Origin: a virus
Direction: 5' to 3' (one strand)
DNA: 23,751 bases
IMG/VR virus record: IMGVR_UViG_3300037114_000274
Span: 1 to 23,751 of that record
Positions 1-21,141 of the stretch are shown piece after piece. The notes under the pieces are model-generated. The model ran no database searches. It was not told the origin of the DNA and saw only the letters and a list, made by a program, of their open reading frames with translations. How positions within the stretch are numbered: position 1 is the first letter of the stretch; every line of letters starts with the position of its first letter. The translations under genes were made by a program, and so were the position numbers.

Positions 1-66
1 CAAAGGGGGCGGACTGTAAATCCGCTGGCTATGCCTTCGTAGGTTCGAGTCCTACCTCTCCCACCA
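1..66 (+). tRNA. tRNA-Tyr (GTA), 5' end outside window
   Basis: The anticodon loop CTGTAAA with anticodon GTA (16-18) is flanked by complementary GGA/TCC stem bases. It is followed by a long variable arm, a T-arm with GGTTCGAGTCC, and an encoded CCA at 64-66. The long variable arm and GTA anticodon identify bacterial tRNA-Tyr. About 20 bases of the acceptor and D-arm lie before the window. The integrase gene that ends 57 bp downstream suggests the 3' end of this tRNA is the attachment site of an integrated element. Confidence 0.95.
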
Positions 67-105: not shown

Positions 106-127
106 GTGGGTCAATTAGGTGGGTCAA
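106..127. repeat. Direct repeat GTGGGTCAA x2 beside the attachment site
   Basis: The 9-mer GTGGGTCAA occurs at 106-114 and again at 119-127, with a 13-bp period, between the tRNA end and the integrase gene; the second copy overlaps the integrase stop codon. Short direct repeats at this position often act as integrase arm-binding sites. That role is inference only. Confidence 0.4.
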
Positions 128-1230
128 CGCGGTTCACTATCCGATCCGGTTGGCAGATTCATTCTTCGTTCGATCATGCGCGCGGCTTCGCCGGCAAGCT
201 TCTTCTTGTCGGCGCTTGCGGTGTAGATCGTCGCTTGCCTTTCGCTCGTCCAGTCGAACAGCGCCATCAACTGCCGATCGCTCGCGCCGGCATCGGCGCA
301 AATAGTCGCGCCAACCTTCCGTAGCCCATGCGCGGTGCATTCTTTTAGACCGGCTTCATCGCAGCGGTCGCGGAACCAGTTGCCGAAACCTTTGGCCGTG
401 AACGGCTTGCCGAATGATGTCACTAAAAACGTCTTTGAGCCGTGCGCGGTCGCCGCGATGCTGCGTGCTAATGGGGCGAGAATAGGTTTGTGCGATAGAT
501 CGTTACGCACATAGCTCGTCTTGCTTGGCACGAAACTAATGACGCCGTCGCTGACTTGTTGGGGGCCGAGCCGCACGGCATCGCCTCGCCGCACGCCGAG
601 ATAGAGCATCAAATCAAGCGCGAGGCGGGGCATGGTGCCGACTTTATGGCGCGCCTCGAACTGCCGCACCTCCTCGACGCTCCAACTGTGAAAGCCCTCG
701 CTCACAGATTTGATGTGGCGAAGCTCGCGCGCCGGGTTGACCTTGATCAATCCCTCTTCGACTGCCCAGCCGAACAAAGTGGAAAGATACTTGCGTCGGT
801 TATTGGCGGCACCCGGCAATCCTTTCTTGCGATCGCGTAGGGTCTTGATGTGCTTTGGCGCTAGGATAGTGAGCGGGCATCCCGCCATCGTTTCCCTAGC
901 GCCGGGACGAATAGGCTCGGCCATACAGGCGTCGAGGATGGCGCGTCGGGTGGCCCGTGAGTCGGGCACCAGCTTTCCGAACTCTTCCGATGCCAGATAG
1001 CGCGCCGTTAGCCAGCCGAAGGTGCCTATCGTGGTCTTGCCTGTGATCGGCGCAACCAAACCGGCAAAGGCGTTCAGCTCGGCCAGCGCCTCGGTATAGG
1101 CGGCAAGAAACTCGCTGGTACCCGGCGTTTGTCGAATGCGGATTTTGCGGCCGTGCCGGCGGACAAACACACGCTTGTTGCCGTGCCGATCATAATCTGA
1201 AAACAGATAGGGGAGATCGACGCGGCTCAA
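124..1230 (-). CDS. Tyrosine recombinase / phage-type integrase
   Basis: A site-specific recombinase that most likely integrates and excises the element at the adjacent tRNA-Tyr. The C-terminal catalytic domain shows the family residues: Arg in GVRRGD (about residue 214 from the chosen start), the HGLR box (His301, Arg304), Trp in the usual His/Trp position (FDW, about 327), and the nucleophile Tyr in TIYT (about 336). The N-terminal part is an Arg-rich, SAM-like core-binding region. The open frame begins at a TTG at 1260, but a TTG at 1230 is preferred: it overlaps the upstream stop codon as TTGA, has GAGGA 9 bases upstream, and gives the family-like start LSRVDLPYLF (368 aa). This implies translational coupling to the small gene upstream. 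Family assignment is firm; the exact start is less so. Confidence 0.92.
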   Translation of the reverse strand: MSRVDLPYLFSDYDRHGNKRVFVRRHGRKIRIRQTPGTSEFLAAYTEALAELNAFAGLVAPITGKTTIGTFGWLTARYLASEEFGKLVPDSRATRRAILDACMAEPIRPGARETMAGCPLTILAPKHIKTLRDRKKGLPGAANNRRKYLSTLFGWAVEEGLIKVNPARELRHIKSVSEGFHSWSVEEVRQFEARHKVGTMPRLALDLMLYLGVRRGDAVRLGPQQVSDGVISFVPSKTSYVRNDLSHKPILAPLARSIAATAHGSKTFLVTSFGKPFTAKGFGNWFRDRCDEAGLKECTAHGLRKVGATICADAGASDRQLMALFDWTSERQATIYTASADKKKLAGEAARMIERRMNLPTGSDSEPR

Positions 1231-1418
1231 GCTCTCGTGTCCTCGTAAGGGGACGAACAATCGCCAGCTTGAATCCTAAAAACCTTAGGGTCAACCGGGG
1301 TGTCGGACACCAGCACGGTGCCATCCGCCTTGATCGCCGTGACAAACAGCCCCGCCCTGCGCGCGCCGTTGATGGCGCGCGTGAGGCTCGCTTGGGTGAA
1401 GCCGACAGACCTTGTCAT
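1227..1418 (-). CDS. Small protein upstream of integrase (possible excisionase-like partner)
   Basis: A 63-aa protein with an N-terminal GFTQASLTRAINGARRAG segment that reads like a short helix-turn-helix, followed by a basic strand region and a TPVDPKVF tail. Small genes of this type are common directly upstream of integrases in Bradyrhizobium-like genomes; their role is not established, and a recombination directionality or regulatory role is my inference. Its stop codon TGA overlaps the proposed TTG start of the integrase, so the two form one operon. No ribosome binding site is visible, but a TATAAC box lies 6 bases before the ATG, so leaderless translation is possible. Confidence 0.65.
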   Translation of the reverse strand: MTRSVGFTQASLTRAINGARRAGLFVTAIKADGTVLVSDTPVDPKVFRIQAGDCSSPYEDTRA

Positions 1419-1782: not shown

Positions 1783-2667
1783 TCAGCGCACGTGCCAGAC
1801 CAATTTCACTGCCTCGGCGTGCATTAAAGCCGCTCTTCGCTGCAAGTCCTCACTAGCTGTGAGAGCCTTTCCCTCAAATCCATGCACATAACGCCTATCC
1901 GATTCCACACCGTATCGGCGCAAGAACTTTAGCCCAGGCTTATTCAAGTTTTTCAAGGAGTAGCCCATCCAGCCGATATCCGGGGCGCTTGTGAATTTAA
2001 CCGGGACCTTATCGTCATCATATTCAGGAACCCAATTCCCGCCGGCGCGCTTAAGGGCGGCGCGGAACTTCTCAACATCGCGTTCGCTCACACTTGGCCC
2101 CATAGAAATCTCACCGTGAATGTGGAGCCGGGCGCGGCGGCTCATGCGGCGGCTTTCTTCGAGGACGAATACGAATGGCACCGCGCCGGCCCTACAGAGG
2201 TCACGCAGAGGCCGTAGCTGCCTAACGACCCTTCGGTGCAGCCAAGCGAGGCCATGCTTCCCTAGAGCACGCACGTGCTTTTCTACGTCCATGCTCAGCA
2301 TCAACGTGAAGGCTTTTACGCTCGGCTCGCTTGCCAATGCTTCATGAAGAAATAAGCCCTTAATAGCCGTGCCTGTGTCTCGCCATGCCTTTAGTGCTTT
2401 TCTAGGTAACTCATGGTGTGTGCTAGGGAGAGAGATTGGTTTGAGGTGTTTAATGTCTAATCCTACAAGGGGTGGTACACGCCGCTTTCGCGGCCCAAAG
2501 TAGCCAATCTTCATCAAATCATTGACGAAATCGCCGTCCGCGATGAGCGATTTGCGAGGTTTTTGTTTTCCGATTTTGTCATTGCGTTCCGCTTTTGTCA
2601 TTGCGTTCCGTTTTTTCATGCCGATACGCTTTTGTTCGTCGCGTTCGGCGGGAAAAACCTGTTTCAC
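1783..2667 (-). CDS. Probable HUH endonuclease (rolling-circle Rep / REP_ORF2-G2P-like)
   Basis: A 294-aa protein with the marks of an HUH nuclease. After a hydrophobic strand (VPFVFVLEES, 163-172) comes RLHIHGEI, giving His182-x-His184 with Glu186, a candidate metal-binding motif. A later GYSLKN (235-240) gives Tyr236 and Lys239 in a YxxK arrangement typical of the nicking tyrosine. The N-terminal 60 residues are highly basic. The GTG start at 2667 is supported by AGAGGG 5 bases upstream; Met17 and Met23 are alternatives. Such proteins nick one DNA strand to start rolling-circle replication or transfer. Next to an integrase, this suggests a replicating or mobilisable stage of the element. 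The assignment rests on motifs only; no partner genes for conjugation are seen. Confidence 0.6.
   Translation of the reverse strand: MKQVFPAERDEQKRIGMKKRNAMTKAERNDKIGKQKPRKSLIADGDFVNDLMKIGYFGPRKRRVPPLVGLDIKHLKPISLPSTHHELPRKALKAWRDTGTAIKGLFLHEALASEPSVKAFTLMLSMDVEKHVRALGKHGLAWLHRRVVRQLRPLRDLCRAGAVPFVFVLEESRRMSRRARLHIHGEISMGPSVSERDVEKFRAALKRAGGNWVPEYDDDKVPVKFTSAPDIGWMGYSLKNLNKPGLKFLRRYGVESDRRYVHGFEGKALTASEDLQRRAALMHAEAVKLVWHVR
2574..2610. repeat. Short tandem repeat, 18-bp unit x2
   Basis: The unit TTTTGTCATTGCGTTCCG occurs at 2574-2591 and 2593-2610, separated by one base, inside the basic N-terminal part of the HUH gene (encoding overlapping MTK/NAM and RND-like repeats). Because the period is 19 bp, an expansion or contraction would shift the reading frame upstream of Met17 and Met23. 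Confidence 0.7.
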
Positions 2668-3199: not shown

Positions 3200-3778
3200 T
3201 CAATCGCGTAAAGCAACGAGAACACGTCTGACCGATAAAAATCGCTTTTGAAGAACTTGGATAGATGAAGGCCATTGGTAGCTTTCTTCCGGTTGAATTT
3301 GCGAGAATGTTTCCGCCAAATCCATCCTAATTTTCTTACGCAGTTTACTTATATACGCTTGCGTCATGGGCGGCCCAATGGCCTCTGAATATCCCATCGT
3401 CGCATGCCCTTGACAGTCCCCTCTCTCGACTCTGTCAACTATACAAACTGAACGCACCTTTTGTTTGACTCCTTGTTGCTCAAATTCCACGCGCATATCT
3501 CTGATTTTGGAAACAATGACGCTAGCAACGCCAGCTAGGCGTCGGTTATTTACAATCTTTCTTCGAAAGGTGGCGCGCGCGACATAAGAAAGACGTGCAA
3601 TGGACTCTGAGGTAGAGTTCAGATTCTTACTAAATGAATCTGCGGTTAATGTGTTTTTCCTGCGGTCCTGATTTTCGAAGACCGCAAACAGTACCGTTTC
3701 GTCATTCTGAACGGGACCAAATCCACACCATTTGCCGCGATAGTGTTTTGTTGTTTGTTCTTCGACGCACTCAGGCAT
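3200..3778 (-). CDS. Uncharacterised protein, third gene of an unknown three-gene operon
   Basis: A 192-aa soluble protein without signal peptide or membrane segment. Near the N-terminus it has a WCGFGPVQNDETV motif, followed by a segment ending FSKNLNSTSESIARLSYV; the GFGPV..DE pattern recurs in small uncharacterised bacterial proteins, but I cannot name the family. The C-terminal half is basic (KLRKKIRMDLAE). The ATG is 10 bases after the stop of the preceding gene, without a clear ribosome binding site, so translation is probably coupled. Together with the two genes upstream it forms the AT-richer block 3200-5432, which stands out from the GC-rich neighbours and suggests acquisition as a unit. 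The function is unknown. Confidence 0.75.
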   Translation of the reverse strand: MPECVEEQTTKHYRGKWCGFGPVQNDETVLFAVFENQDRRKNTLTADSFSKNLNSTSESIARLSYVARATFRRKIVNNRRLAGVASVIVSKIRDMRVEFEQQGVKQKVRSVCIVDRVERGDCQGHATMGYSEAIGPPMTQAYISKLRKKIRMDLAETFSQIQPEESYQWPSSIQVLQKRFLSVRRVLVALRD

Positions 3779-3788
3779 TTGTAATGGT

Positions 3789-4697
3789 CTATTGGACAGT
3801 TACCGATTCAAGTGCATCATAAAATTCCTTCGGCAGATGATCGTCAATCTGAGATTCAATGCCATTCTCTGCATAATATTGACCTGGGCGCCTAAATGCG
3901 ATCGACGCAAAACCATCACCCGCAAAAATTAGTGCCACACCCCTGTCGCCCCTCTGCCATTGCAGTCCCAAAATTCCATCTTCAGAAAGCGTTATGAGAT
4001 GGACACCCCCCAGATTGTTCTTTCGAACAAGCGTGATTGCATCGCGCATTCCGGCGTTGGCTACTGTAACATTCTCAGGATCAATGACGGAGCTGGCGCG
4101 TTTTGTAACGATCTCATCTATCAGTTGACGGCTTGCGTCGACGAATATTGAGTTCGCACCAGATTGTGCAATAATGCTCGTTCCATTAAAACCTAGATCC
4201 TCAATAGAAATTTGTCCAAGTTGACTCCTAAGATTATTAGTTGGAAAAAAGACAGCGCGATCTGTTGGCGTAATCATTACCCCTGGTAAGCTTAGCAACA
4301 TTACTGAGCCCGCAATTCCAGCGATAATATTGTTATTGGGATCGAAGATCGATTGGTTTTCTGTTTGTCGATGAACTTTCCTCATCGCCACTGCGGTGTT
4401 TGCCCGATCTGTGCCGCCGATCAAAATTGTATTTGGTGCGAGGGGGTTCCTTGATTGCGTCCCTGATGTCAACAAAACCGTCGGTGGAAATTCGATCCCA
4501 CCTGTATGAGACAACACGAAGCCTTGCGGGACCAGAACACCCGTGGATAAAAATTCTGTTGTCCCTATGCTAGCGGTCGAGGACAAATTGCTAGAGACGC
4601 TGAGTATGTCGTTAGAATAAAATTTAGACCCTTCGATCGCGACGGGGCTGACTGTAGTCGCCGATACTGGAAAAGCCAACGATCCGCTGATTGCCAT
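3789..4697 (-). CDS. Uncharacterised protein, second gene of the three-gene operon
   Basis: A 302-aa protein. The first 100 residues are rich in Ser, Thr and beta-forming residues; a hydrophobic stretch (IIAGIAGSVMLLSLPGVMI, about 123-141) could be a membrane segment or buried helix. The C-terminal third contains LSEDGILGLQW and GVALIFAGDGFASIAF, which look like a compact beta domain with repeated strand-turn-strand elements. The ATG start at 4697 has TTAGGA eight bases upstream, and this ribosome binding site includes the TAG stop codon of the preceding gene, so the two are translationally coupled. I do not recognise the family. The hydrophobic stretch leaves open whether the product is membrane-attached. 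Confidence 0.75.
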   Translation of the reverse strand: MAISGSLAFPVSATTVSPVAIEGSKFYSNDILSVSSNLSSTASIGTTEFLSTGVLVPQGFVLSHTGGIEFPPTVLLTSGTQSRNPLAPNTILIGGTDRANTAVAMRKVHRQTENQSIFDPNNNIIAGIAGSVMLLSLPGVMITPTDRAVFFPTNNLRSQLGQISIEDLGFNGTSIIAQSGANSIFVDASRQLIDEIVTKRASSVIDPENVTVANAGMRDAITLVRKNNLGGVHLITLSEDGILGLQWQRGDRGVALIFAGDGFASIAFRRPGQYYAENGIESQIDDHLPKEFYDALESVTVQ

Positions 4698-4706
4698 GGC
4701 GATATC

Positions 4707-5432
4707 CTAAGCGAGCGCAGCAAATGTGTTATTATTACAAAGTCTTTCGACCTCATCACCAATTTCTTGAAACATTACATCTTGTTCCGCGGGAGTAAAT
4801 TGGCGTGGGGTTACAGGAGAAGCCGAACTCACGTCTACCGTCAGCGTTGCAACGTTTGCCGAACCGATTTGGGGGGTCCCCGCGACAATATTGACCAAAC
4901 TGAAGCTGTCGCTTTGCCACTTCATTATTCGAAACATATCAATGCCCGCAATCGACTGAAATTGTCTTTTGCGATTGATTTGAAAAATCAGCTCTCTACC
5001 GTCCTGAAACGGCAAAGTAATATTTAGTATTGGCAAAATCAGCCCCGCCGCAGCCTCAGGACTTGGCTGCTCCTCTGAGGTGTTCACTACCATAGCAATA
5101 CGATCGACACTGCCAATCGTCGCGCTTCCTTTCGGAAGGTTGGCTCGAAAACGATTCATTGCTGAATCAAAATCAGAAAAGAGTGGAAATACATTCGGCG
5201 ACGCAGGCAATGGGTTATGAAAAAAATCCACACGACCGCCTTGGATCTGCACGCGATAAATGCCGTGAGCATCCTGACCTTGAGCTAAGGAAAGACCCCC
5301 GGTTGGGTTGGATTGAATAGCTGTGGGAGCCGTGCCGACCACAGCAGAGTAAATGCTGTTCGCCGTTGATTGAGGAGAAATTGCAGCCGCGTACCATACA
5401 GCCTGTAAGGACTGTAAACCCCAACGAGGCAT
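4707..5432 (-). CDS. Uncharacterised protein, first gene of the three-gene operon (TIGR04255-like?)
   Basis: A 241-aa protein. The open frame begins at an ATG at 5438, but that codon abuts the ribosome binding site AAGGA; the ATG at 5432 has ideal spacing (7 bases) and gives the start MPRWGLQSLQ. The middle contains an alternating IYRVQIQGGRVDFF strand region and the C-terminus a VATLTVDVSS strand, then FTPAEQDVMFQEIGDEVERL. This overall pattern (late beta strand with Asp, then a helix ending in a short F-rich tail) is reminiscent of TIGR04255-type proteins, which are scattered among bacteria and of unknown function; this is a weak match. It is the promoter-proximal gene of the operon. The upstream 290 bp (5433-5723) contain no gene I can support. 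Confidence 0.75.
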   Translation of the reverse strand: MPRWGLQSLQAVWYAAAISPQSTANSIYSAVVGTAPTAIQSNPTGGLSLAQGQDAHGIYRVQIQGGRVDFFHNPLPASPNVFPLFSDFDSAMNRFRANLPKGSATIGSVDRIAMVVNTSEEQPSPEAAAGLILPILNITLPFQDGRELIFQINRKRQFQSIAGIDMFRIMKWQSDSFSLVNIVAGTPQIGSANVATLTVDVSSASPVTPRQFTPAEQDVMFQEIGDEVERLCNNNTFAALA

Positions 5433-5723
5433 AATCATTTCCTTCGTGTCAGTGGCAGGTAACTCTCGCCACAGCGAATAAATGTACTAAATCTTAAAAA
5501 AGGAGTCTCCCCGTTAGCCGGGCTAGGCATTTGACAGTAAAAGGCCCGTGTTTCAAGCATATTTCGAAGGCGGCCCCTCCGACCTACATCTGGCCAAGGC
5601 GGAGGCCCAGTCTGCAGCGGCCCTTATGCAAGGGCTGGCGGCACTTCAAACAGCTGCTCGACCGGCCGCTAATAATTCAGCCAGATGCATCTCAACGGGC
5701 CCTTACTCTAACGGCACCATGAT

Positions 5724-7004: not shown

Positions 7005-7128
7005 ACCGACGGGATAATTGCGCCTTGAAAAAAACCTCGTGACCACAGAGCGCATGGGGGTCCGAGCGATCAAATTTCAATGGGACTTCGACCGATAGCG
7101 CGATCGCGCCCACCGACGCGAAATCTCA
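7005..7128 (+). repeat. Direct repeat, left copy (framing R-M and hydrolase block)
   Basis: About 120 bp that match 18251-18372 in the same orientation, roughly four bases out of five by eye, including TTGCGCCTTGAAAAAAAC, ATGGGGGTCCG, CAATGGGACTTCGA and GCCCACCGA. The frame that is open in the right copy (GTG at 7039) is stopped here by TAG at 7096-7098, so this copy is decayed. The rest of 6964-7411 contains no gene I can support; it leads into hsdR. Confidence 0.85.
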
Positions 7129-7411
7129 GCGCATAATCACTACTCTGCGTACCTCAACAGCGCGCAGCTAGACGACATCGCTATGGTTCGGAGCTGTGAA
7201 TGCCTCCGCACCCATCAGTGGTGGATACGTGCCGTTTTTCTCGAAGTTTTCCTAGTTAGTCAATGTTCCAAGGATCTGCACTTGTTTAGTAGAGCCAGCC
7301 TGATCCGTTTTTCGAGCGGTTTAGTGGCAATTTTTCTGGGTTGTTGCTCCCCGATGCTGATAATGGTTGCACCGACAGCATCCACAGCTAAAACGAGGAC
7401 CGGCTGCCATC

Positions 7412-9865
7412 GTGGATAAGCACACGCTCAGCGAACGCGACATCTGCACCAAATTCATTACGCCGGCCCTGCGTCAGGTAGGCTGGGATGAGATGTTGCA
7501 AATCCGCGAGGAGGTGAGCTTCACCAAAGGCCGCATCATCGTCCGCGGCAAGCTCGTCAGTCGCGGAAAAGCCAAGCGCGCCGACTATGTCCTCTATTTT
7601 AAGCCCAATATCCCGCTGGCTCTGATCGAGGCCAAGGATAATTCTCATAGCGTCGGTGACGGGATGCAGCAGGGCCTCGAGTACGCCGTGACGCTCAAAA
7701 TACCCTTCGTGTTTTCATCCAATGGCGACGGCTTCGTGTTTCACGACAGCACCGGCGCGAGCGGTGCGATCGAAACGAACCTCGCGCTCGATGCCTTTCC
7801 TTCGCCAGCCGATCTGTGGGCGCGCTATCGCGCCTGGAAGGGCCTGACGGATGAGGCCGAGCAGATCGTGCTTCAAGACTACTTCGACGACGCCAGCGGT
7901 AAGGCCCCGCGCTATTACCAGGTCAATGCCGTCAACGCGGCGATCGAGGCCATCGCCAAGGGCCGCGACCGCATCCTCCTCGTCATGGCGACCGGCACGG
8001 GCAAAACGTACACCGCGTTTCAGATTCTTTGGCGTCTTTGGAAGGCTGGCCGTAAGAAGCGCATCCTTTATCTCGCCGACCGCAATGTGCTTATCGATCA
8101 GACGATGGTGAACGACTTCCGGCCGTTCGGCACAGTTATGGCAAAATTAAGCGTGAATGCGAAGACCATTGAGAAGTTAGATGGCACGACGACGGAACTG
8201 GCAACGGCGTTCGACCCAACACGGCAGATCAACAAATCCTACGAGGTCTATCTCGGCCTCTATCAGGCGATCACCGGCCCAGAGGAACGGCAAAAGTTGT
8301 TCCGCGATTTCTCGCCCGGATTCTTCGATCTGATCGTGATCGACGAGTGTCATCGAGGCAGTGCGGCGGAGGATTCGGCTTGGCGCGAGATTCTTGAATA
8401 CTTCTCATCCGCAACGCAGATCGGCATGACTGCAACTCCCAAAGAGACCAAATACATCTCCAACATCGCCTATTTCGGCGACCCGGTTTTCTCTTACTCA
8501 TTGAAGCAGGGCATCCGCGATGGATTTCTCGCTCCCTACAAGGTTATCAAGGTCCATATCGACCTCGACGTGGAAGGCTACCGACCTGAAAAGGGCCAAC
8601 TCGACCGCGAGGGCGAGGAAGTCGAGGACCGCATCTATAACACCAAGGATTTCGACCGCACCCTGGTGCTGGACGACCGCACCAAGCTGGTTGCCCGCAA
8701 AGTCACCGAGTTTCTAAAGGAAAGTGGCGACCGCTTCCAGAAAACCATTATCTTCTGCGTCGATCAGGAGCACGCGGCGCGGATGCGCCAGGCGCTCATC
8801 AATGAGAACGCCGATCTCGTTGCCGAAAACCACCGTTATGTCATGCGCATCACCGGCAATGACAAAGAAGGCCAAGATCAACTTGGCAATTTTATCGACC
8901 CGGAATCCAAATATCCCGTCCTCGTCACCACCTCGCGCCTGCTCTCTACCGGCGTGGATGCGCAGACATGCCGGCTGATCGTGCTCGACCGCGAAGTCGG
9001 CTCGATGACCGAGTTCAAACAGATTGTCGGGCGCGGCACCCGCGTGCACGAGGACACCAAAAAGTTCTATTTCACTTTGATCGACTTTCGGGGTGATACC
9101 AGCCATTTCGCCGATCCTGATTTCGACGGCGAGCCAGTGCAGATATACGAGCCAAGCGAAGGCGACCCCGTCGTGCCACCCGATGACGTGCCACCCGCCA
9201 GCGACGAAGATGAGCCCATTCCACCGACCCCAGGAGATGACGAAACGATTGTTGACGGGCAGCCGCCCGACATCACAATTCCGGCGGGCGGACAAAGACA
9301 AAAGAAAGTTTATGTCGATGGCATCGAAGCCCGCATCATTGCCGAGCGCGTGGAATATCTCGACGAGAACGGTGAACTCATCACCGAGTCCCTGCGCGAC
9401 TTCACCAAGGCGGCCCTAAAGAAGCGCTTCGCCAGCCTCGACGATTTTCTCAAGCGGTGGAAAGCGGCGGAGCGCAAGCAGGCCATCATCGATGAATTGG
9501 AGGCGGAGGGTCTGCCGCTCGACCCCATCGCCGAGGAACTGGGCAAGGACCTCGACCCTTTCGACCTCATTTGCCACGTTGCCTTCGGTCGGAAGCCACT
9601 CACCAGGCGCGAGCGGGCCGACAACGTCAAGAAGCGCGATATTTTCACTAAGTACGGGCCGCAGGCTCATGCTGTTCTCGATGCGCTCCTCGCCAAATAT
9701 GCTGACGAGGGCGTTCTCAATCTCGACGACGGCAATGTGCTGAAAATCTCGCCGTTCACCGAAATGGGCAGCGTCGTTCAACTCATCAAGGCGTTCGGCG
9801 ACCGGCAAGGCTTCGAGCGAGCCGTCCACGAACTGCAATCCGCCCTCTATCAGGAAGCCGCGTAA
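7412..9865 (+). CDS. hsdR: Type I restriction enzyme, R (restriction/translocase) subunit
   Basis: This is the motor and nuclease subunit of a type I R-M complex. The frame is open from 7367, but the GTG at 7412 gives the family-typical start VDKHTLSERDICTKFITPAL (817 aa). From that start: an N-terminal PD-(D/E)xK nuclease domain with Asp58 (RADYVLYFKP) and EAK at 73-75; Walker A ATGTGKT at 193-199; Walker B DECH at 311-314; motif III GMTATPKE soon after; and motif VI QIVGRGTR in the second RecA-like lobe. A Pro/Asp/Glu-rich linker separates this from a helical C-terminal domain of the EcoEI R type. It is the first gene of a three-gene operon; all key motifs are intact, so it is probably functional. 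Confidence 0.97.
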   Translation: MDKHTLSERDICTKFITPALRQVGWDEMLQIREEVSFTKGRIIVRGKLVSRGKAKRADYVLYFKPNIPLALIEAKDNSHSVGDGMQQGLEYAVTLKIPFVFSSNGDGFVFHDSTGASGAIETNLALDAFPSPADLWARYRAWKGLTDEAEQIVLQDYFDDASGKAPRYYQVNAVNAAIEAIAKGRDRILLVMATGTGKTYTAFQILWRLWKAGRKKRILYLADRNVLIDQTMVNDFRPFGTVMAKLSVNAKTIEKLDGTTTELATAFDPTRQINKSYEVYLGLYQAITGPEERQKLFRDFSPGFFDLIVIDECHRGSAAEDSAWREILEYFSSATQIGMTATPKETKYISNIAYFGDPVFSYSLKQGIRDGFLAPYKVIKVHIDLDVEGYRPEKGQLDREGEEVEDRIYNTKDFDRTLVLDDRTKLVARKVTEFLKESGDRFQKTIIFCVDQEHAARMRQALINENADLVAENHRYVMRITGNDKEGQDQLGNFIDPESKYPVLVTTSRLLSTGVDAQTCRLIVLDREVGSMTEFKQIVGRGTRVHEDTKKFYFTLIDFRGDTSHFADPDFDGEPVQIYEPSEGDPVVPPDDVPPASDEDEPIPPTPGDDETIVDGQPPDITIPAGGQRQKKVYVDGIEARIIAERVEYLDENGELITESLRDFTKAALKKRFASLDDFLKRWKAAERKQAIIDELEAEGLPLDPIAEELGKDLDPFDLICHVAFGRKPLTRRERADNVKKRDIFTKYGPQAHAVLDALLAKYADEGVLNLDDGNVLKISPFTEMGSVVQLIKAFGDRQGFERAVHELQSALYQEAA

Positions 9866-9868
9866 GTT

Positions 9869-11326
9869 ATGTCAGTCCGCACCGTCGTAAAATCCATCCA
9901 GGACATCATGCGCCAAGACACCGGCGTCGATGGCGACGCCCAGCGCATCAGCCAGTTGTGCTGGATGTTCTTCCTCAAGATCATCGACGACCAGGACCAG
10001 GAACTGGAACTGTTGAATCGTGATTACCGGTCGCCGATTCCGAAGAAGCACCAGTGGCGCACCTGGGCCGCAGACCCGGAGGGCATCACCGGCGAGGAAC
10101 TCATGGCCTTCGTCAACGGTGAACTATTCCCGGCGCTGAAAAGTCTTGGGGTCTCGACCAAACCCGGCGACCGCCGTCGCGTAGTCAAGGACGTCTTCGA
10201 GGACGCTTACAACTATATGAAATCCGGCCAGCTCATGCGGCAGGTCGTGAACAAGATCAACGAAGTCGACTTCAACAATCTGGCCGAGCGTCAGCATTTT
10301 GGCGATATCTACGAGCAGGTGCTCAACGACCTGCAATCGGCAGGCAACGCGGGTGAGTACTACACGCCGCGCGCCGTCACCGCCTTCATGGTGGACCGCA
10401 TCGACCCGCATCCCAGCGAAATCCTGCTCGATCCGGCGTGCGGCACCGGCGGCTTCCTCACCTGTGCGCTGCGCCACATGCGCGAACGCTACGTGAAGAA
10501 GCCCGAGCATGAGAAGATGATGCAGGCCGCCTTGCGCGCGGTTGAGAAGAAGCAGCTTCCGCACATGCTCTGCGTCACCAACATGCTGCTGCACGGCATC
10601 GAGGACCCGAGCTTCGTGCGCCACGACAACACGCTGGCCCGGCCCTACATCAGCTACACCCAGTCCGACCGGGTGGACATCGTGCTGACCAACCCGCCCT
10701 TCGGCGGGCGCGAGGAGGACGGCATCGAGAGCAATTTCCCGAAACATTTTCAGACGCGCGAGACTGCCGATCTTTTTCTCGCTCTCATCGTGCGCCTGTT
10801 GAAAAAGGATGGCCGCGCCGCCGTGGTACTGCCGGATGGCACGCTGTTCGGCGAAGGCGTGAAGACGCGGCTCAAGGAACATCTGATGGAGGAGTGCGAT
10901 CTCCATACCATCGTCCGCCTGCCCAATTCGGTGTTCAGGCCCTACGCCTCGATCGGCACCAACCTGTTGTTCTTCGAGAAGGGCGAACCAACGAAAGACA
11001 TTTGGTTCTACGAGCACCGCGTGCCGGAAGGCCAGAAAGCTTACTCGATGACCAAGCCGATCCGCTTCGAGCATCTGCAAGGCTGCATCGACTGGTGGGG
11101 CGGGCCGAAGAGGAAGGGTCGCGATGAGACTCCACAGGCGTGGAAGGTGACGGCCGAGGCGGTGAAAGCGCGCGGCTACAACCTCGATATTAAGAACCCG
11201 CATACCATCGCCGATGACCACGGCGACCCGGAGGTTCTGCTCGAAAGTCTGAACGCCGCCGAGGCCGAGACGGCGAGCCTCCGCGACCAATTGAAAGCAA
11301 TCCTCGCCGAGGCGCTGGCTCGATGA
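9869..11326 (+). CDS. hsdM: Type I restriction-modification, M (N6-adenine methyltransferase) subunit
   Basis: A 485-aa protein that transfers a methyl group from S-adenosylmethionine to adenine N6 and forms the core of the M2S and R2M2S complexes. The N-terminal helical HsdM_N domain (IMRQDTGVDGDAQRISQLCW) is followed by the GNAGEYYTPRAVTAFMV segment typical of HsdM, motif I DPACGTGGF for cofactor binding, and motif IV NPPFGG, the catalytic (N/D)PP(Y/F) motif. The ATG lies 3 bases after the hsdR stop, and the last codons overlap hsdS by 4 bases (ATGA), so translation along the operon is coupled. Length is normal for the family and no damage is visible. Confidence 0.97.
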   Translation: MSVRTVVKSIQDIMRQDTGVDGDAQRISQLCWMFFLKIIDDQDQELELLNRDYRSPIPKKHQWRTWAADPEGITGEELMAFVNGELFPALKSLGVSTKPGDRRRVVKDVFEDAYNYMKSGQLMRQVVNKINEVDFNNLAERQHFGDIYEQVLNDLQSAGNAGEYYTPRAVTAFMVDRIDPHPSEILLDPACGTGGFLTCALRHMRERYVKKPEHEKMMQAALRAVEKKQLPHMLCVTNMLLHGIEDPSFVRHDNTLARPYISYTQSDRVDIVLTNPPFGGREEDGIESNFPKHFQTRETADLFLALIVRLLKKDGRAAVVLPDGTLFGEGVKTRLKEHLMEECDLHTIVRLPNSVFRPYASIGTNLLFFEKGEPTKDIWFYEHRVPEGQKAYSMTKPIRFEHLQGCIDWWGGPKRKGRDETPQAWKVTAEAVKARGYNLDIKNPHTIADDHGDPEVLLESLNAAEAETASLRDQLKAILAEALAR

Positions 11327-13014
11327 ACGCGGCGCAGCTTCTGGAACATTTCGATCGTGTCGGCGACGCACCTAACGCGATTGTGCGCCTCCGCCAGGCC
11401 ATTCTTAAACTCGCCGTGCGCGGCAAGTTGCTTCCACAAAAGCCGAGGGATTGTTGGCCTGAGAAGTCATTGGAGTTGGTCCGCGAGCGACTTGAAGCGA
11501 AAGCCGAGAAAACCAGTCGGCTGCAGTGGAAGCGTTCTGATCCCCTCGAATCTGACGAATATCCGGCTGATATTCCGTCAGGATGGATGCCCGCGCGCAT
11601 TAATGACTCTGGCCTCTACATCAATGGCATGGCCTTCAAGCCCTCCGATTGGAAGAAAAGTGGGCTACCGATAGTCCGCATCCAAAACCTGACTGATCGG
11701 TCAAAGGAATTTAATTACGCACAGGGCACATTCCCGGACGAAGTGCTTGTTCGGGACGGAGATATCCTTGTTTCTTGGTCGGCGACGCTAGAGGCATTTA
11801 TTTGGTCGCGAGGTGCGGGAGTACTGAACCAGCATATCTTTCGCGTCTTGCCTAATGAAGAACTTACAACCACGAGGTTTCTGCATTTATTGCTACGTAA
11901 CGCAATCCAAATAATGGCTCAGAGTGAACATGCACACGGCCTAGCCATGATGCACATCAATCGCGCGCCGTTCCTCGCTCACGTTTTACTTATTCCACCC
12001 GTTGCTGAACAAGAGCGCATCGTCTCCAAGTTTGATGAGTTGATGGCCTTTTGCGATCGGCTGGAGACGGCGAGGGCGGAGCGGGAGGCAACGCGCGACC
12101 GGCTCTCGGCGGCGAGCCTCGCCCGCCTCAACGCGCCCGATCCCGAAGCTTTCCAGGCCGACGCCCATTTCGTGCTCGACGCGTTGCCTGCCCTGACCAC
12201 GCGTCCTGACCAGATCAAGCAGCTTCGCCAGACCATCCTCAACCTCGCAGTGCGCGGCAAACTGGTGCCGCAGGTGGCGGGCGACGAACCGGCGTCGGAA
12301 TTGTTAAAACGGATCGCGAAGGCAAAGGGTGGCGCTAGGCGTCCCGTCGCCGTGATCGATCCCGAGGGCGAACCCTATCCTTTGCCCGAAACATGGAAAT
12401 GGGCCACGCTTGACCAATTGATTGTATCGGGACCGCAGAACGGCATTTCTCCTAAGCCAACGACCCGCGAAGATGCGCCTAAGGCAATAACCTTGACCGC
12501 AACAACAAGCGGTGCGTTCAATCCGAACTATTTCAAACACGTTGAAGCAAACATTGCTCCCGACTCGGACTTCTGGCTAAAAGACGGCGATCTACTTTTT
12601 CAAAGAGGGAACACGCGCGAATACGTTGGGATTGCAGCGGTCTACCAAGGCCCGCCGAACAGGTTTCTCTTTCCCGATCTGATTATGAAGGTGAGGGTGT
12701 CCGCTCTGCTTAGCCTTCAATTTGTTCATCTCGCGTCGGTGTCGCCGCCCGCGCGCGCTTTTCTTTCCACAAATGCGTCGGGCGCGCAGGCAACAATGCC
12801 GAAGATAAATCAGACGACGCTCGTCTCGTTGCCAATTCCACTCCCACCCCTCGCCGAGCAGCACCGCATCGTCGCCATGGTCGATGAGCTGATGGCGCTG
12901 TGCGACCGGCTTGAGGCGAGCCTCTCCACCGGCAACGACACCTGCCGCCGCCTGCTCGACGCGCTGCTCGCTGAGGCGCTGGCGCCCGCCGAGAAACGCG
13001 AAGAGGCTGCATGA
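11323..13014 (+). CDS. hsdS: Type I restriction-modification, S (specificity) subunit
   Basis: A 563-aa DNA-recognition subunit with the usual two-fold layout. An N-terminal conserved block (RLRQAILKLAVRGKLLPQ, 22-39) recurs in the centre (QLRQTILNLAVRGKLVPQ, about 299-316). Each is followed by a target recognition domain, TRD1 at about 85-230 and TRD2 at about 345-520, and each TRD ends in a conserved segment (PPVAEQERIVSKFDELMAFCDRLE and PPLAEQHRIVAMVDELMALCDRLE). The two TRDs read the two halves of a split target sequence. The DNA encoding the TRDs is visibly richer in A and T than the conserved blocks, as expected from domain exchange between hsdS genes. The recognition sequence cannot be predicted by eye. 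Confidence 0.96.
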   Translation: MNAAQLLEHFDRVGDAPNAIVRLRQAILKLAVRGKLLPQKPRDCWPEKSLELVRERLEAKAEKTSRLQWKRSDPLESDEYPADIPSGWMPARINDSGLYINGMAFKPSDWKKSGLPIVRIQNLTDRSKEFNYAQGTFPDEVLVRDGDILVSWSATLEAFIWSRGAGVLNQHIFRVLPNEELTTTRFLHLLLRNAIQIMAQSEHAHGLAMMHINRAPFLAHVLLIPPVAEQERIVSKFDELMAFCDRLETARAEREATRDRLSAASLARLNAPDPEAFQADAHFVLDALPALTTRPDQIKQLRQTILNLAVRGKLVPQVAGDEPASELLKRIAKAKGGARRPVAVIDPEGEPYPLPETWKWATLDQLIVSGPQNGISPKPTTREDAPKAITLTATTSGAFNPNYFKHVEANIAPDSDFWLKDGDLLFQRGNTREYVGIAAVYQGPPNRFLFPDLIMKVRVSALLSLQFVHLASVSPPARAFLSTNASGAQATMPKINQTTLVSLPIPLPPLAEQHRIVAMVDELMALCDRLEASLSTGNDTCRRLLDALLAEALAPAEKREEAA

Positions 13015-14123: not shown

Positions 14124-15548
14124 TACGAGGGGGGATTCGTCCGCTCGCCGAATGAGCCGCGATGTTTTGAGGTTGGGCCAGATTATTGGGGGGGGCGGGC
14201 GGCGATGAGCACTTGGGTAGATTTTGAGCTGGTCCGTATTGCTGGGGCATATTTTCGACAACTTGCAACTACCAGCATAGGCCTCAATCCTCACAGCGAC
14301 GACTTTAGTTCAGACGGTTCATCATTCCCAGCTTCGCAATTATCAGCGTTACATTAGGGGGCATTCCAGAAGGGAGCTGATTGGATCAACTATGCTGCCT
14401 CGCCTGTTGCCGACGCTTTAGGTGTTTCGTCCGTCCCTGACGATGTTTTCCCACATCCGCAAAGCTCTATCATTTCGATGACAGCAGATGTGGCCGCGAC
14501 AATCGTTAGCGCCAGCAAGATCCAGGTCGACGGGGAATTACAATCGGGTGCGCAGGCGCTCAACAACTCGCAAGTAATAACGGCGCTGGGCGCATCCTCG
14601 CAGCAATTTTACGACAATGATGTTTCTTCCTATTCGGGCGGTTCGGGCTTGAACCTGCCGCGGGACGCGCACGCAACTATGATCGACGGCAGCTGTGTAG
14701 AGAGCAATACAGATACCACAGCAGCTCTAATGACGATCGTTGAAAGGTCGCCCTTTTTTGTTGCGGGGCAAGCGATCACCAACAGCGTCAACGCCACCGC
14801 CTCGTCGATTCAGACTTTCAGTGATAGTAGCGACGCGATGTTGCCAAATAATGCTACGAACAGTGCAGGCGGCAACGTGGGCGTGTTTGCAATCCAAGGC
14901 ATGAGTATGACGAGTTATACCGTGCAGGGATATTCAACCTCGAATTATCCTTCGATGCTTACCGAGGCTAAGACGGATGGCGCAAATTGGGTAGAACTTA
15001 GTTCCGTCTCTCAAATAAATATGTCTTCGGGGGCTATAACTTCCCTGAATCTTGGCGATGTGTTTCCTGGTAATACCATCTCATTGAGCAGCCTCGGGTC
15101 TGCAATCGCGGCCGCTGAGGCTCAAGGCCTAAACGTCTTGTTGAAGCCGCAAATTATGACGTTAGATGCGGATGGCAACTACAATAATCTTTTACAAGAC
15201 TCTCCGAGCGATTCGTTGGTTATTGCCAACCCTGCCGCATTTTTCGCTAGCTACGAAGCTTACATTTTACAATTTGCCGAATTGGCGCAGCAATATAATG
15301 TCAGCATGCTTTCAATCGGCAACGAAATGGCATATGCGACGCTACCGCAATACACGCCATACTGGGATAATATCATTGCTGCTGTACGGGGGGTGTACAG
15401 CGGGGCGCTGACTTATTCTGCTGAGATTGGCACTCCATTTTTTTACAATTCGTCCGACCCTTCCGCGGCCGTGAATGACGAAGTACAGCACATTCAGTTT
15501 TGGAACCTGCTCGATTATGTTGGAATGGATGTCTACCCGGGGCTCACT

Positions 15549-15556
15549 CAACAATC
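15549..15556. repeat. Target site duplication, left copy
   Basis: CAACAATC directly before the MITE-like element; identical copy at 15856-15863. Confidence 0.85.
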
Positions 15557-15855
15557 CGTGCTTATCCGGTTAAGACACACAGCCCTACATCTTGTGGTCA
15601 TCGCGGCGGCCCAATTGCATCGTTCTCGATGGCTTCGGCTATCGCATTTGCGACGCCTTGTGCAACCGGCGTCTTACAATGTTGCTCGGCAAAGCGAGCG
15701 ATGTTGGCGCAACGCTGACGCTCGTTAGCTATGGCTTGGGCCACGGCAGGTTTAAGTGCTCCCGGCGTCTTTCGTCCCAATCCTCTGCGGTCTGTCATGG
15801 TTGTTCCTAGATGTAGTGGCTCTCAGCGTTTGTGTGCGTCAACCGGATAAGCATG
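15557..15855. mobile_element. MITE-like element, 299 bp, with ~25-bp TIRs and 8-bp TSD
   Basis: The left end CGTGCTTATCCGGTTAAG... and the right end, read on the minus strand, CATGCTTATCCGGTTGAC..., form imperfect terminal inverted repeats with about 22 of 25 positions matching, both running into CACACA. The flanks carry an 8-bp direct repeat, CAACAATC (15549-15556 and 15856-15863). Deleting 307 bp (element plus one copy) joins GLTQQS to NPTVAQF in frame. There is no transposase inside, so it needs one in trans. An 8-bp target duplication occurs in several IS families (for example IS1595, IS66, IS6); which one applies here is not determined. Confidence 0.9.
15598..15798 (-). CDS. Short ORF inside the MITE-like element (passenger or gene fragment)
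   Basis: A 66-aa minus-strand frame (MTDRRGLGRKTPGALK ... AIAEAIENDAIGPPR) that fills most of the element between the inverted repeats. The composition is protein-like: an Arg/Lys-rich start, then amphipathic Ala-rich helices (AQAIANERQRCANIARFAEQ). It could be a captured gene fragment or an accidental open frame. It does not resemble a transposase. No ribosome binding site was checked as convincing. Confidence 0.35.
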   Translation of the reverse strand: MTDRRGLGRKTPGALKPAVAQAIANERQRCANIARFAEQHCKTPVAQGVANAIAEAIENDAIGPPR

Positions 15856-15863
15856 CAACAATC
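15856..15863. repeat. Target site duplication, right copy
   Basis: CAACAATC directly after the MITE-like element; identical to 15549-15556. Confidence 0.85.
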
Positions 15864-18127
15864 TAACCCAACCGTTGCCCAGTTTGATGCTGCATGGAAC
15901 AATTCGACGTACTTTGGAACATCCCCCCAAAACTGGGTTCAGAGCATTACTCAAATAGCTGAGAGTATCGGCAAGCCCGTATTATTTACAGAAACGGGAG
16001 CTGCAAGCTTTGTAGGATCAAACTTGAATACTGGCAGCGGTGGCTCGGCCGGATCAGTATCTGATTTGCAGATCCAAACAAATTGGTGGGAATCATTTTT
16101 TAACACGTGGGCCGTGAATGAGCCCAGCTGGCTTGCTGGAATATTCGCATGGGACATGGATCCGAATCTGACAAGTTCAGCCAATCCCGGCTACTCAACC
16201 GACTTTGCCATAAACGGTAAGCCTGCTGAGCAGGTTATTTCATCTTGGTTTGGTGGAAAAGAGTATTTGTCATTCAACCAGTCGTCCTTCACGGGCAGCG
16301 TGGCCAATGACCAGATCTATCTCTATGGCAATCAGATCAGCAACGCCCTTCAGGCAGCCGACGGAAAACCTGTTACTCAATTAGAAACGTTTAGCACTAC
16401 GATTTCCATTACGCTTAGCGGACCCATAATTAATGGAGCGGTTCAAACCATCCATTTTTATATTAATGGTGCCGATGAGGGCGCGCAGTCATTGGCGAAC
16501 ACGCCCGGCACCTATGTAGACTCCAGTGGTGTTACGTGGACGCAGCAGCAAACGTTCAACTTCACGCTTTCTGGGGCCGTCAGCATCAGCCAACTGAAGA
16601 TCGCGATCGATAGTGCCGTCAGTGTTGGCGGTCCGGAGAACGAAACGACGTACATAGATTCAATTGAGATAAACGGCGTACAGTCAACAAACGCAACCTA
16701 TTACCCTCTTGTCGGATCGCCACAACAGCAAACATTGAGTAACAGTAGCTGCAGTATGTATGATGGCGGCTACATCATCATCAACGCCTCACCGTGGAAC
16801 AACACGTTGGCCGGGTATGCGGTGGGTACAGCGGCACAGCCAATACAGGTCAATGGCGGCGGCGGAACGGACACGGTCTACGTTCTTGGTAATCCGGCCG
16901 ACTATAATATAGTTGAAGTCAATGCGAGCACGGTGACGCTTACCGAAAATGCTGGTTTGGACCAAAATGCGGTTCTGACCGATATTTCATACATTGTTTT
17001 TCAAGATGGTGCCATCTTCAACGTATCTACCGACACTTTCGTGCCGACGGCGGCGTCGATCTCGGCCACAACAGACAACAACGCCACTAACGTGAATGCC
17101 GGTCACCTGGTCACGATAACCCTAACGACCAGTTTGGTGGAGACAGTGACCGGCACGCCAACGTTGCAACTCAATGATGGTGAAGTGGCGGGCTATACCA
17201 ACGGCTCAGGCACCAACACGCTCACTTTCACTTATGCTGTGCAGCCGGGGGATAACACCGCTGACCTGCATGTAACCGGCCTCAATCTGCCGACTGGCAC
17301 CAGCATCGTCGATAACAATGGCAATAGCCTCTTAGGACCGGTCACCAGTGATCTCGGCATCCAGGTGGATACCACGACGGTGCCGCCGACCTCGGTGCAG
17401 CAGGAGATTCTTGGGCTTTATGCGGCACTTTACGGTCGCGCCACTGACTCCGGCGGTGTTTCATACTGGGCCGGTATTGTGGGGCAGCAGTCCGATGGCG
17501 CGGGCGTAACGACTGCCAATGCCGGGACCACGGCCGTCACGCTCAACGATGCTGCGGTGCTGGGGCAAGCCTTCGTCAATACACAGAGCACATATTTCAA
17601 CTCGCTCTACGGTAGCCTGAACGACAGCGCGTTCATCAACGCGCTCTATGTCAACATCGGCGGCAATGCTGGTGACCCCGGTGGCATCGCCTATTGGGCC
17701 AATATTCTGGCTCAGTCCGAGGCCGGAGGGCAGAGCGTACAGGCGGCACGTGCCGGACTGGTGGGGCAGTTCGTGCATGATCTGGTCGATTACAATCTGG
17801 CGGCTGGCGCCGCTGGGCTAACGGCCGCGCAACTTCTGGCAGCGACGCAGCGCCAGGCAGCCGTCGATAACAAGATTGCGGTATCGCTGGACTTGTCCAA
17901 TGCCTCGCAGCAGCCCGGCGGCAGCATTCTTGTTGTGCAGACCGTTGGCGATGCGGCCTTCCAGGCGGACAGCACCGTTATTCAGGGTGTGACCTACAAT
18001 CCTGCCACGGTCACGGCTGCGATCCTCGGCATCAACAATGCTGTTGCTCACCAGAACCTGTTGTTGATCTGAGGGTCGTTATACCGCAGATGCTGCTCGC
18101 CCGCGCCGACGAGACCGTCGATCAGCG

Positions 18128-18250: not shown

Positions 18251-18372
18251 CCGATGATTGCGCCTTGAAAAAAACGTCGTGAGCACAGAGCGGATGGGGG
18301 TCCGCGAATCCGAAAACCAATGGGACTTCGATCGATTGCGCGATCTCGCCCACCGATACGACATCTCCCCGC
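18251..18372 (+). repeat. Direct repeat, right copy (framing R-M and hydrolase block)
   Basis: Matches 7005-7128 in the same orientation; see that entry for shared blocks. Four of the codon differences between the copies are synonymous in the frame starting at the GTG at 18279, which hints that this was once coding. Confidence 0.85.
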
Positions 18373-18380
18373 AATGTTAG
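18279..18380 (+). CDS. Possible 33-aa small ORF inside the right direct repeat
   Basis: A GTG-initiated frame (alternative ATG at 18294) whose product contains ERMGVRESENQWDFDRLRD followed by LAHRYDISPQC. The same frame exists in the left repeat copy but is stopped there by TAG. The 3' end overlaps the end of the convergent minus-strand gene by four bases. The sequence WDFDRLRDLAHRYDIS reads like part of a helix-turn-helix or recombination-related protein tail, but this is speculative. No ribosome binding site was recognised. Confidence 0.3.
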   Translation: MSTERMGVRESENQWDFDRLRDLAHRYDISPQC

Positions 18381-20176: not shown

Positions 20177-20581
20177 TCATGGTTTTTCGTCGGCGTTCTC
20201 ATAGACTGTCACATCTACGCTGTCGCCATCCTTGACTGGTAGCCAATCGCGCAAATACTCCTCGGCCATTATTTCGAGCATGTTGTCCCCGTGAAAATTC
20301 GTGCTGGTGCGCAATATGAGGGCTTTTAGGCTTCGTCCATGTCGCCCAACACGGCAGATTTCAAAAGACCAATCTTCTCCTCCGCGTTCGGGTTTCCGCC
20401 GCTCGCTGTTGCGTAAGTAAAAATCCCCACGAGTCGGATGAGGCTCCGGTAGTTTTACGTTTAGGGTTCCGGCCCTTAGCCCGCGAAAGCCGGTGCGTTC
20501 GCGAATTTCGTCGATGACGTTTGACGTTATCGGACTAGCGACGCTCACGCCCGACCCAACTTTTCCCATCAGTATCTTCAT
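20177..20581 (-). CDS. DUF120-type protein, CTP-dependent riboflavin kinase-like
   Basis: A 134-aa protein with the archaeal RibK/DUF120 pattern: an N-terminal GKVGSGVSVAS strand-turn, GFRGLRAGTLNVKL with the diagnostic GTLNV at 38-42, then NFHG (about 95-98), MLEIMAEEYLRDWL (101-114) and a final KDGDSVDVTVYE strand (117-128). In archaea this fold phosphorylates riboflavin with CTP to make FMN; bacteria normally use the unrelated RibF, so this would be either a transferred enzyme or a related protein with another role. Catalytic function is not proven here. It stands alone on the minus strand, with the Doc toxin gene upstream in the same direction (129 bp away). No clear ribosome binding site was found; the ATG at 20581 gives a family-typical start. 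Confidence 0.7.
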   Translation of the reverse strand: MKILMGKVGSGVSVASPITSNVIDEIRERTGFRGLRAGTLNVKLPEPHPTRGDFYLRNSERRKPERGGEDWSFEICRVGRHGRSLKALILRTSTNFHGDNMLEIMAEEYLRDWLPVKDGDSVDVTVYENADEKP

Positions 20582-20709: not shown

Positions 20710-21141
20710 TCAAGATCTCATTCGCGTTCGCTTGAACTCTTCCCATTCTTCCGTCGTGATCACGCACTTTCGTAACGTATCCAAAAATACAGATTCTGAA
20801 ATTGAACCCAGTATTGATCGCTCAACAAACATTCCCAATGGCTCCCCATCGGGAGCCACAAATGAATAGCCATTTAATCTTAAAAATACCGATGCCGCCG
20901 CCATAGCAGTACGTTTATTGCCCTGTTCAAATGCGTGATTTCGTCCAATTCCCAGGAGAAGGCTGCCTGAGAGACTCACAATATCATGATCGGAGTATGC
21001 CCATCTATTTTGGGGTCTTGCCACTGCGCTTGAAAGAAGACCCGCATCGCGCAAAAAGTGAGGCTCGCCGCTAGCAGCGACGAGCCTCCGATTGATACCA
21101 ATTACTTGGCTATCCGTTAGCCAGATTGGTTCATTTGGCAA
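20710..21141 (-). CDS. doc: Doc-type Fic toxin
   Basis: A 143-aa toxin of the Fic/Doc family. The Fic motif HAFEQGNKRTA (His69 to Ala79) is present, with Phe71 and Asn75-Lys76-Arg77 matching the Doc version HxFxxxNKR; this segment binds the nucleotide. Doc phosphorylates elongation factor EF-Tu and halts translation. The N-terminus (PIWLTDSQVIGINRRLVAASGEPHFLRD) is typical for Doc. The frame starts at a TTG at 21141, with TGGA a few bases upstream, and overlaps the antitoxin gene by 11 bases. Catalytic residues are intact, so an antitoxin is expected; it is encoded just upstream. Confidence 0.92.
   Translation of the reverse strand: MPNEPIWLTDSQVIGINRRLVAASGEPHFLRDAGLLSSAVARPQNRWAYSDHDIVSLSGSLLLGIGRNHAFEQGNKRTAMAAASVFLRLNGYSFVAPDGEPLGMFVERSILGSISESVFLDTLRKCVITTEEWEEFKRTRMRS

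Follow-up and report, generated by a model that had tools for sequence, protein, structure and literature searches.

The three minus-strand genes at positions 3200 to 5432 of the DNA considered here raise the question of whether a compact, AT-rich block of genes forms a functional unit and, if so, what such a unit might do for its carrier. The DNA (the window) is an IMG/VR contig analysed over its full 23,751 bases. An earlier note, made from the sequence letters, had described tightly coupled genes of 241, 302 and 192 codons spaced by 9-10 nt, and the open reading frames and the intergenic gaps (9 and 10 nt) are as described there. The features of the operon, all on the minus strand, are these:

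4707..5438, minus: P1 open reading frame (243 aa; 241 codons, 4707..5432, from the ATG at 5432), from the ORF call
3789..4697, minus: P2 open reading frame (302 codons), from the ORF call; its place in the cassette and its C-terminal domain fit the P2 family
3200..3778, minus: P3 open reading frame (192 codons), putative effector, from the ORF call, HMM and alignment
5440..5444, minus: Shine-Dalgarno AAGGA of P1, 7 nt ahead of the ATG at 5432, from sequence
4705..4709, minus: TAGGA, with the P1 stop codon TAG within the P2 Shine-Dalgarno, 7 nt ahead of the P2 ATG, from sequence
4272..4328, minus: probable membrane segment, P2 residues 124-142 (IIAGIAGSVMLLSLPGVMI), from hydropathy
3810..4130, minus: P2 C-terminal domain, residues 190-296, probable counterpart of the WDG/dG.v.l.W domain, from hhalign and blastp
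3698..3727, minus: CGFGPVQNDE motif of P3, kept as GPV..DE in family members

The ATG at 5432 was chosen as the P1 start on the basis of its better-placed Shine-Dalgarno sequence and its agreement with the starts of homologues. The coupling in which a stop codon lies inside the next ribosome binding site is found at the P1/P2 junction (TAGGA) but not at the P2/P3 junction, TAGACCATTACAAATG, where the stop codon does not overlap the ribosome binding site. Promoter and terminator consensus matches in the operon region did not rise clearly above shuffled expectation. At 48.5, 47.0 and 45.8% GC (GC3 about 44%) the three genes are AT-richer than the 54.4% GC of the whole window, as had been stated, and they contrast with the restriction-modification (R-M) operon of the same island (58.3% GC, GC3 72%).

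That the block sits in an island with R-M and toxin genes was likewise borne out, the following landmarks having been identified:

1..63, plus: 3' portion of a tRNA gene, lying at the edge of the contig and likely the site of integration (Rfam RF00005, 29.1 bits, barely above the gathering score of 29)
124..1260, minus: tyrosine integrase of the island (PF00589, 9.7e-12)
7367..13014, plus: EcoAI-type I restriction-modification operon hsdR-hsdM-hsdS (NF046051, PF02384, PF01420)
20710-21141: Fic gene

Since the tRNA-like start adjoins an integrase, the contig probably represents one end of an element integrated at a tRNA gene, which also carries a GH113-like gene pair and a serine recombinase. 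Several further features of the island may be recorded. A 294-aa protein encoded next to the integrase (1783-2667, minus strand) has a HIHGEI (HUH-like) motif and no family match, and could be an initiator of rolling-circle type belonging to the island. The R-M operon and the GH113 genes lie between the copies of a 121-nt direct repeat (7013-7133 and 18253-18373, 83% identical, 11.2 kb apart), which may mark a separately acquired segment. The GH113 domain itself (14478-18072) is split across two adjacent plus-strand ORFs, with profile positions 12-189 in the first and 193-289 in the second and an inverted repeat (15559-15581/15831-15853) at their junction. Next to Fic, at 20177-20581, is a DUF120 domain (CTP-dependent riboflavin kinase), of a kind known chiefly from archaea. 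The nearest plasmid relative of the window hsdM is L008 (Paracoccus plasmid p420573; loci compared here bear L numbers), in which the R-M operon is interrupted by FRG-domain and NucS-domain genes.

The three window proteins gave no convincing match in Pfam, NCBIfam, PADLOC or PHROGs, and single-sequence searches of IMG/VR, GTDB contigs and plasmids (to E 10) returned no relative; the plasmid matches at E 0.4-7 that were opened were chance. A Cas_Csm6_CARF candidate on P1 (0.013) fell below the cut-off and was unsupported by relatives, and a two-sequence P1 profile run over 299 genomes of proteobacteria and 249 others gave nothing real. Relatives of P1 came from a six-frame search in 397 genomes chosen around the host that carries a related integrase (one homologue, L016, with a single-genome E of 8e-6 and followed by two further small genes), from the PDC-M32A model (L095) and from P1b profiles (L097 and L108). 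In blastp the window P1 matches L016 P1 at 2e-11 and L095 P1 at 4e-4, and an HMM of L016, L095 and L097, with the window left out, matches it at 1.8e-8, the next window ORF scoring 0.2. These four and the window P1 make up P1b, a family defined here by match to an HMM of the other members, to which the window P1 may be firmly assigned on its profile match.

A weak TIGR04255 resemblance had also been suspected in the first gene. It could not be detected in the window P1, which does not match the NCBIfam TIGR04255 model (criterion 30 bits) at E up to 1, and comparison of the window P1/P1b with 17-32 TIGR04255 sequences by hhalign gave p 0.25 or worse. The hunch was nevertheless right for the related cassettes, most of which start with a TIGR04255 gene. 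TIGR04255 (NCBIfam 'sporadTIGR04255', function unknown), matched in about 8-9% of sampled proteobacterial genomes (24/299; 11/121 in one order), is like P1b in occupying the first cassette position ahead of the same P2 and P3 and in its similar size (241-285 aa), but P1b appears to be a separate family, undetected by model or by profile-profile comparison.

Membership of the third gene is well marked. The CGFGPV..DE motif picked out by eye in P3 does indeed typify the P3 family, whose pattern is GPV..DE, LS..R, D.p and HA; in the alignment the window P3 keeps the subfamily-invariant E27, S59, R62, R109, D115 and H125. P3-family HMMs made without the window sequence match it at 5.8e-4, 5.8e-5 and 9.1e-8 as members were added, with the best unrelated ORFs at 0.15 or worse, and hhalign of the window P3 against the family gives 92% and 6.4e-7 (reversed control 0.52). 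By these comparisons the window P3 can be placed firmly in the cassette P3 family. The eight-member P3 alignment was too variable for an IMG/VR scan.

The second gene is the weakest link of the window cassette. The hallmark of the P2 family is a C-terminal domain with the pattern WDG...P...dG.v.l.W (also written WDG...dG.i.l.W); the P2-family HMM score of the window P2, 0.49, is not significant, and the WDG tripeptide is absent from the window copy. Its C-terminal domain, compared with the P2 family by hhalign, gives p=0.0018 and 0.0045, against 0.15 or worse for reversed-sequence and cross-family controls, and the C-terminal part matches the phage-borne L108 P2 at 2e-5 in blastp. Homology to the cassette P2 family is supported in part, for the C-terminal domain only, and outside residues 190-296 the sequence of the window P2 is unique. 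Its 19-residue hydropathy maximum, 2.15, is the highest among 39 P2 entries. An LptD assignment of P2 (0.057) was set aside, being below the cut-off and unsupported by relatives.

The cassette in which these families occur consists of three adjacent same-strand genes in the order P1-P2-P3, the arrangement found in the window, and about 36 loci have HMM-recognisable P2 and P3 directly behind P1 in that order. A search led by TIGR04255 found P2 and P3 right behind at 18 of 33 usable genome loci, and P1b-led searches yielded L097 and L108, both with P2 and P3. Single occurrence of homologues, which the earlier note had set as grounds for refutation, was not seen for P3: a P3-only search of 165 genomes gave seven matches, all seven in complete cassettes, six of them already known (L042, L043, L046, L047, L051 and L052) and one new (L113). 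The full cassette was present on all 15 IMG/VR contigs with room downstream, a biased sample picked with cassette-type P1 profiles and in which L080 duplicates L052. Seven Rhizobiales loci supplied the first-round P2 and P3 HMMs, with which the other loci were found; later HMMs include most members, whose E-values are consequently not independent, while members outside the training set score 7.6e-23 (P2) and 4.8e-27 (P3) for L113 and 3.6e-4 (P2) and 3.7e-10 (P3) for L108. The P2 and P3 of L016 were not recognised by the family HMMs. The three genes almost certainly belong together as one unit, and on the strength of its sequence matches the window operon is a divergent version of this three-gene cassette (P1 or P1b, P2, P3), which is mobile. 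The suggestion that the three products work together is upheld as regards gene order, which is the same in homologous and often mobile loci; from this we infer joint function.

TIGR04255 genes are also followed by other genes, at L044, L054-L060, L066, L067, L070, L071, L074 and L075, and this variety downstream suggests that TIGR04255 may be a shared module paired with different outputs. At L044, L056, L059, L066 and L074 the TIGR04255 gene precedes a small hydrophobic protein and then a 190-230 aa protein with the motif LSN(T/S)CD(M/I), constituting a second recurrent TIGR04255 gene set, the third protein of which (L044 tested) has no Pfam match. Further partner sets are a 213 plus 233 aa pair in L054 and L055, an HTH_3 protein plus a 271 aa protein in L058, and, in L071 and L075, two proteins of 188 and 125 aa; in the latter two loci the third gene looked HEPN-like by eye, which Pfam did not confirm.

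The surroundings of the cassette are diverse. By Pfam, it neighbours an M15 peptidase and an integrase in L083, an amidase and an integrase in L091, and an integrase in L077; in L076 it adjoins a relaxase-like protein (Pfam match under the curated cut-off) and in L080 a Toprim protein, while L106 and L107 are chromosomal spots with no recognised phage genes. The L108 contig is phage-like by eye; a portal assignment for the 790-aa gene after its cassette, also by eye, was not confirmed by Pfam or PDB sequences. Two P1 queries went unmatched among 50,697 phage records (tblastn, E 0.01), which argues that prophages and islands are the home of the cassette, and not the well-sampled isolated phages.

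What the cassette does must be weighed among several readings. That the three genes are unrelated chance neighbours would accord with the lack of any pairwise blastp match between the window P2 and P3 and those of L016, but the window P1, P2 C-terminus and P3 all find their counterparts in one set of cassette families, arranged in the same order, and this reading is very improbable. The best reading, to which we give an even chance, is that the operon is a conflict system, probably directed at phages or superinfection, by which whatever carries the mobile element would be protected from rival phages or from mobile DNA of other kinds. This reading draws on the mobile-element settings, the R-M operon on the same island, the link to PDC-M32A treated below and the membrane segment of P2. 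A defence or conflict role would fit this context and the PDC-M32A link; the defence-island association is guilt by association, and the unmatched fold of P3 and the low TM (about 0.3) of the fold matches for the P1 counterpart count against the reading. An addiction (toxin-antitoxin-like) module, in which P3 or a membrane-anchored P2 would be toxic and P1 and/or P2 would neutralise it, so stabilising the island or prophage with protection being secondary, is rather unlikely. The small size and tight coupling of the genes, their location on mobile elements, the Fic gene on the same island, and the several unrelated partner sets of TIGR04255, one with HTH_3 (L058), as of a shared control part with varied outputs, all point toward it; however, there are three genes and not two, neither a known toxin fold nor a Pfam match was seen in any partner, and P1-P3 have no known DNA-binding domain.

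In L083, L091, L092 and L108 the cassettes adjoin genes for lysis or large genes of phage-like character, which speaks for lysogenic-conversion or phage-biology genes at prophage ends, with roles for example in lysis timing, the particle or the envelope. This seems improbable, since cassettes also reside on the relaxase-bearing element of L076, at the chromosomal spots of L106 and L107 and on the R-M island of the window, and the P1 queries went unmatched in the phage records. Carriage by mobile elements themselves would suit counter-defence cargo shielding the element from host immunity, but stable chromosomal copies and R-M company are atypical of such cargo, there is no similarity to described families, and we regard this reading too as quite improbable.

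If the operon is a conflict system, P1 or P1b would be a ligand- or nucleic-acid-sensing (or scaffold) partner, P2 an adaptor linking P1 to P3 and, in the window, to the membrane, and P3, which is compact, of alpha/beta type and carries an invariant E / S..R / R / D / H set, an effector acting on infection. Which protein plays which part is guesswork that follows fold and conservation. The pointer for the first protein is the TBP/AdoMetDC-like topology of its TIGR04255 counterpart: the AlphaFold2 model of the L083 protein (pLDDT 89, pTM 0.85) has two repeats of strand-helix-strands-helix, and Foldseek aligns it with an AdoMetDC prozyme (E 2.7e-4) and a TBP complex (8.4e-4) at probability 0.99, a resemblance of topology (TM 0.27-0.33) for which no homology is claimed. 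The AlphaFold2 model of L076 P3, made with the window sequence in the alignment (pLDDT 83, pTM 0.80), matched no PDB or viral fold significantly; its likeness to Tse2, FHIT and other small alpha/beta proteins is at chance level (TM 0.26-0.35, E above 1), and an enzyme of the ART or HIT type, a reading of P3 prompted by the weak Tse2 and FHIT rows, was rejected.

None of the libraries searched contains the complete cassette, and TIGR04255 is not named in the literature searched, subscription papers and preprints being outside its scope; the cassette itself, the second P1 family (P1b) and the membership of the window seem undescribed. Roughly half of the TIGR04255 loci carry the cassette, although neither P2 nor P3 has a family in Pfam. 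For defence discovery, a three-gene unit that is common, often mobile and includes a protein fold unmatched in the PDB makes a good target. P1b shows that the first cassette position can vary. A wider picture, in which prophages and islands share a widespread, undescribed immune system of three proteins, with a P3 effector of no known fold, a first gene drawn from at least two families and a modular platform through the TIGR04255 shared with several other partner sets, is offered tentatively, as one that we somewhat doubt.

One of the nearest known systems is PDC-M32 (PDC-M32A + PDC-M32B), a two-gene PADLOC phage defence candidate (PMC12429752) that is also reported in Sinorhizobium meliloti prophages (PMC12429752, Table 4) and for which no experimental test was found in the literature. 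The window P1-P3 matched no defence-system model of PADLOC 2.0.0, neither PDC-M32A nor PDC-M32B. The first ~245 positions of PDC-M32A have no match to cassette P2s, and the window proteins do not reach the model. The L092 P2, however, matches PDC-M32A at 2.6e-5, the sole PADLOC match among the relatives, and the last third of the model (positions 247-363 of 375) is like the C-terminal domain of the P2s in L092, L049, L050 and L095.
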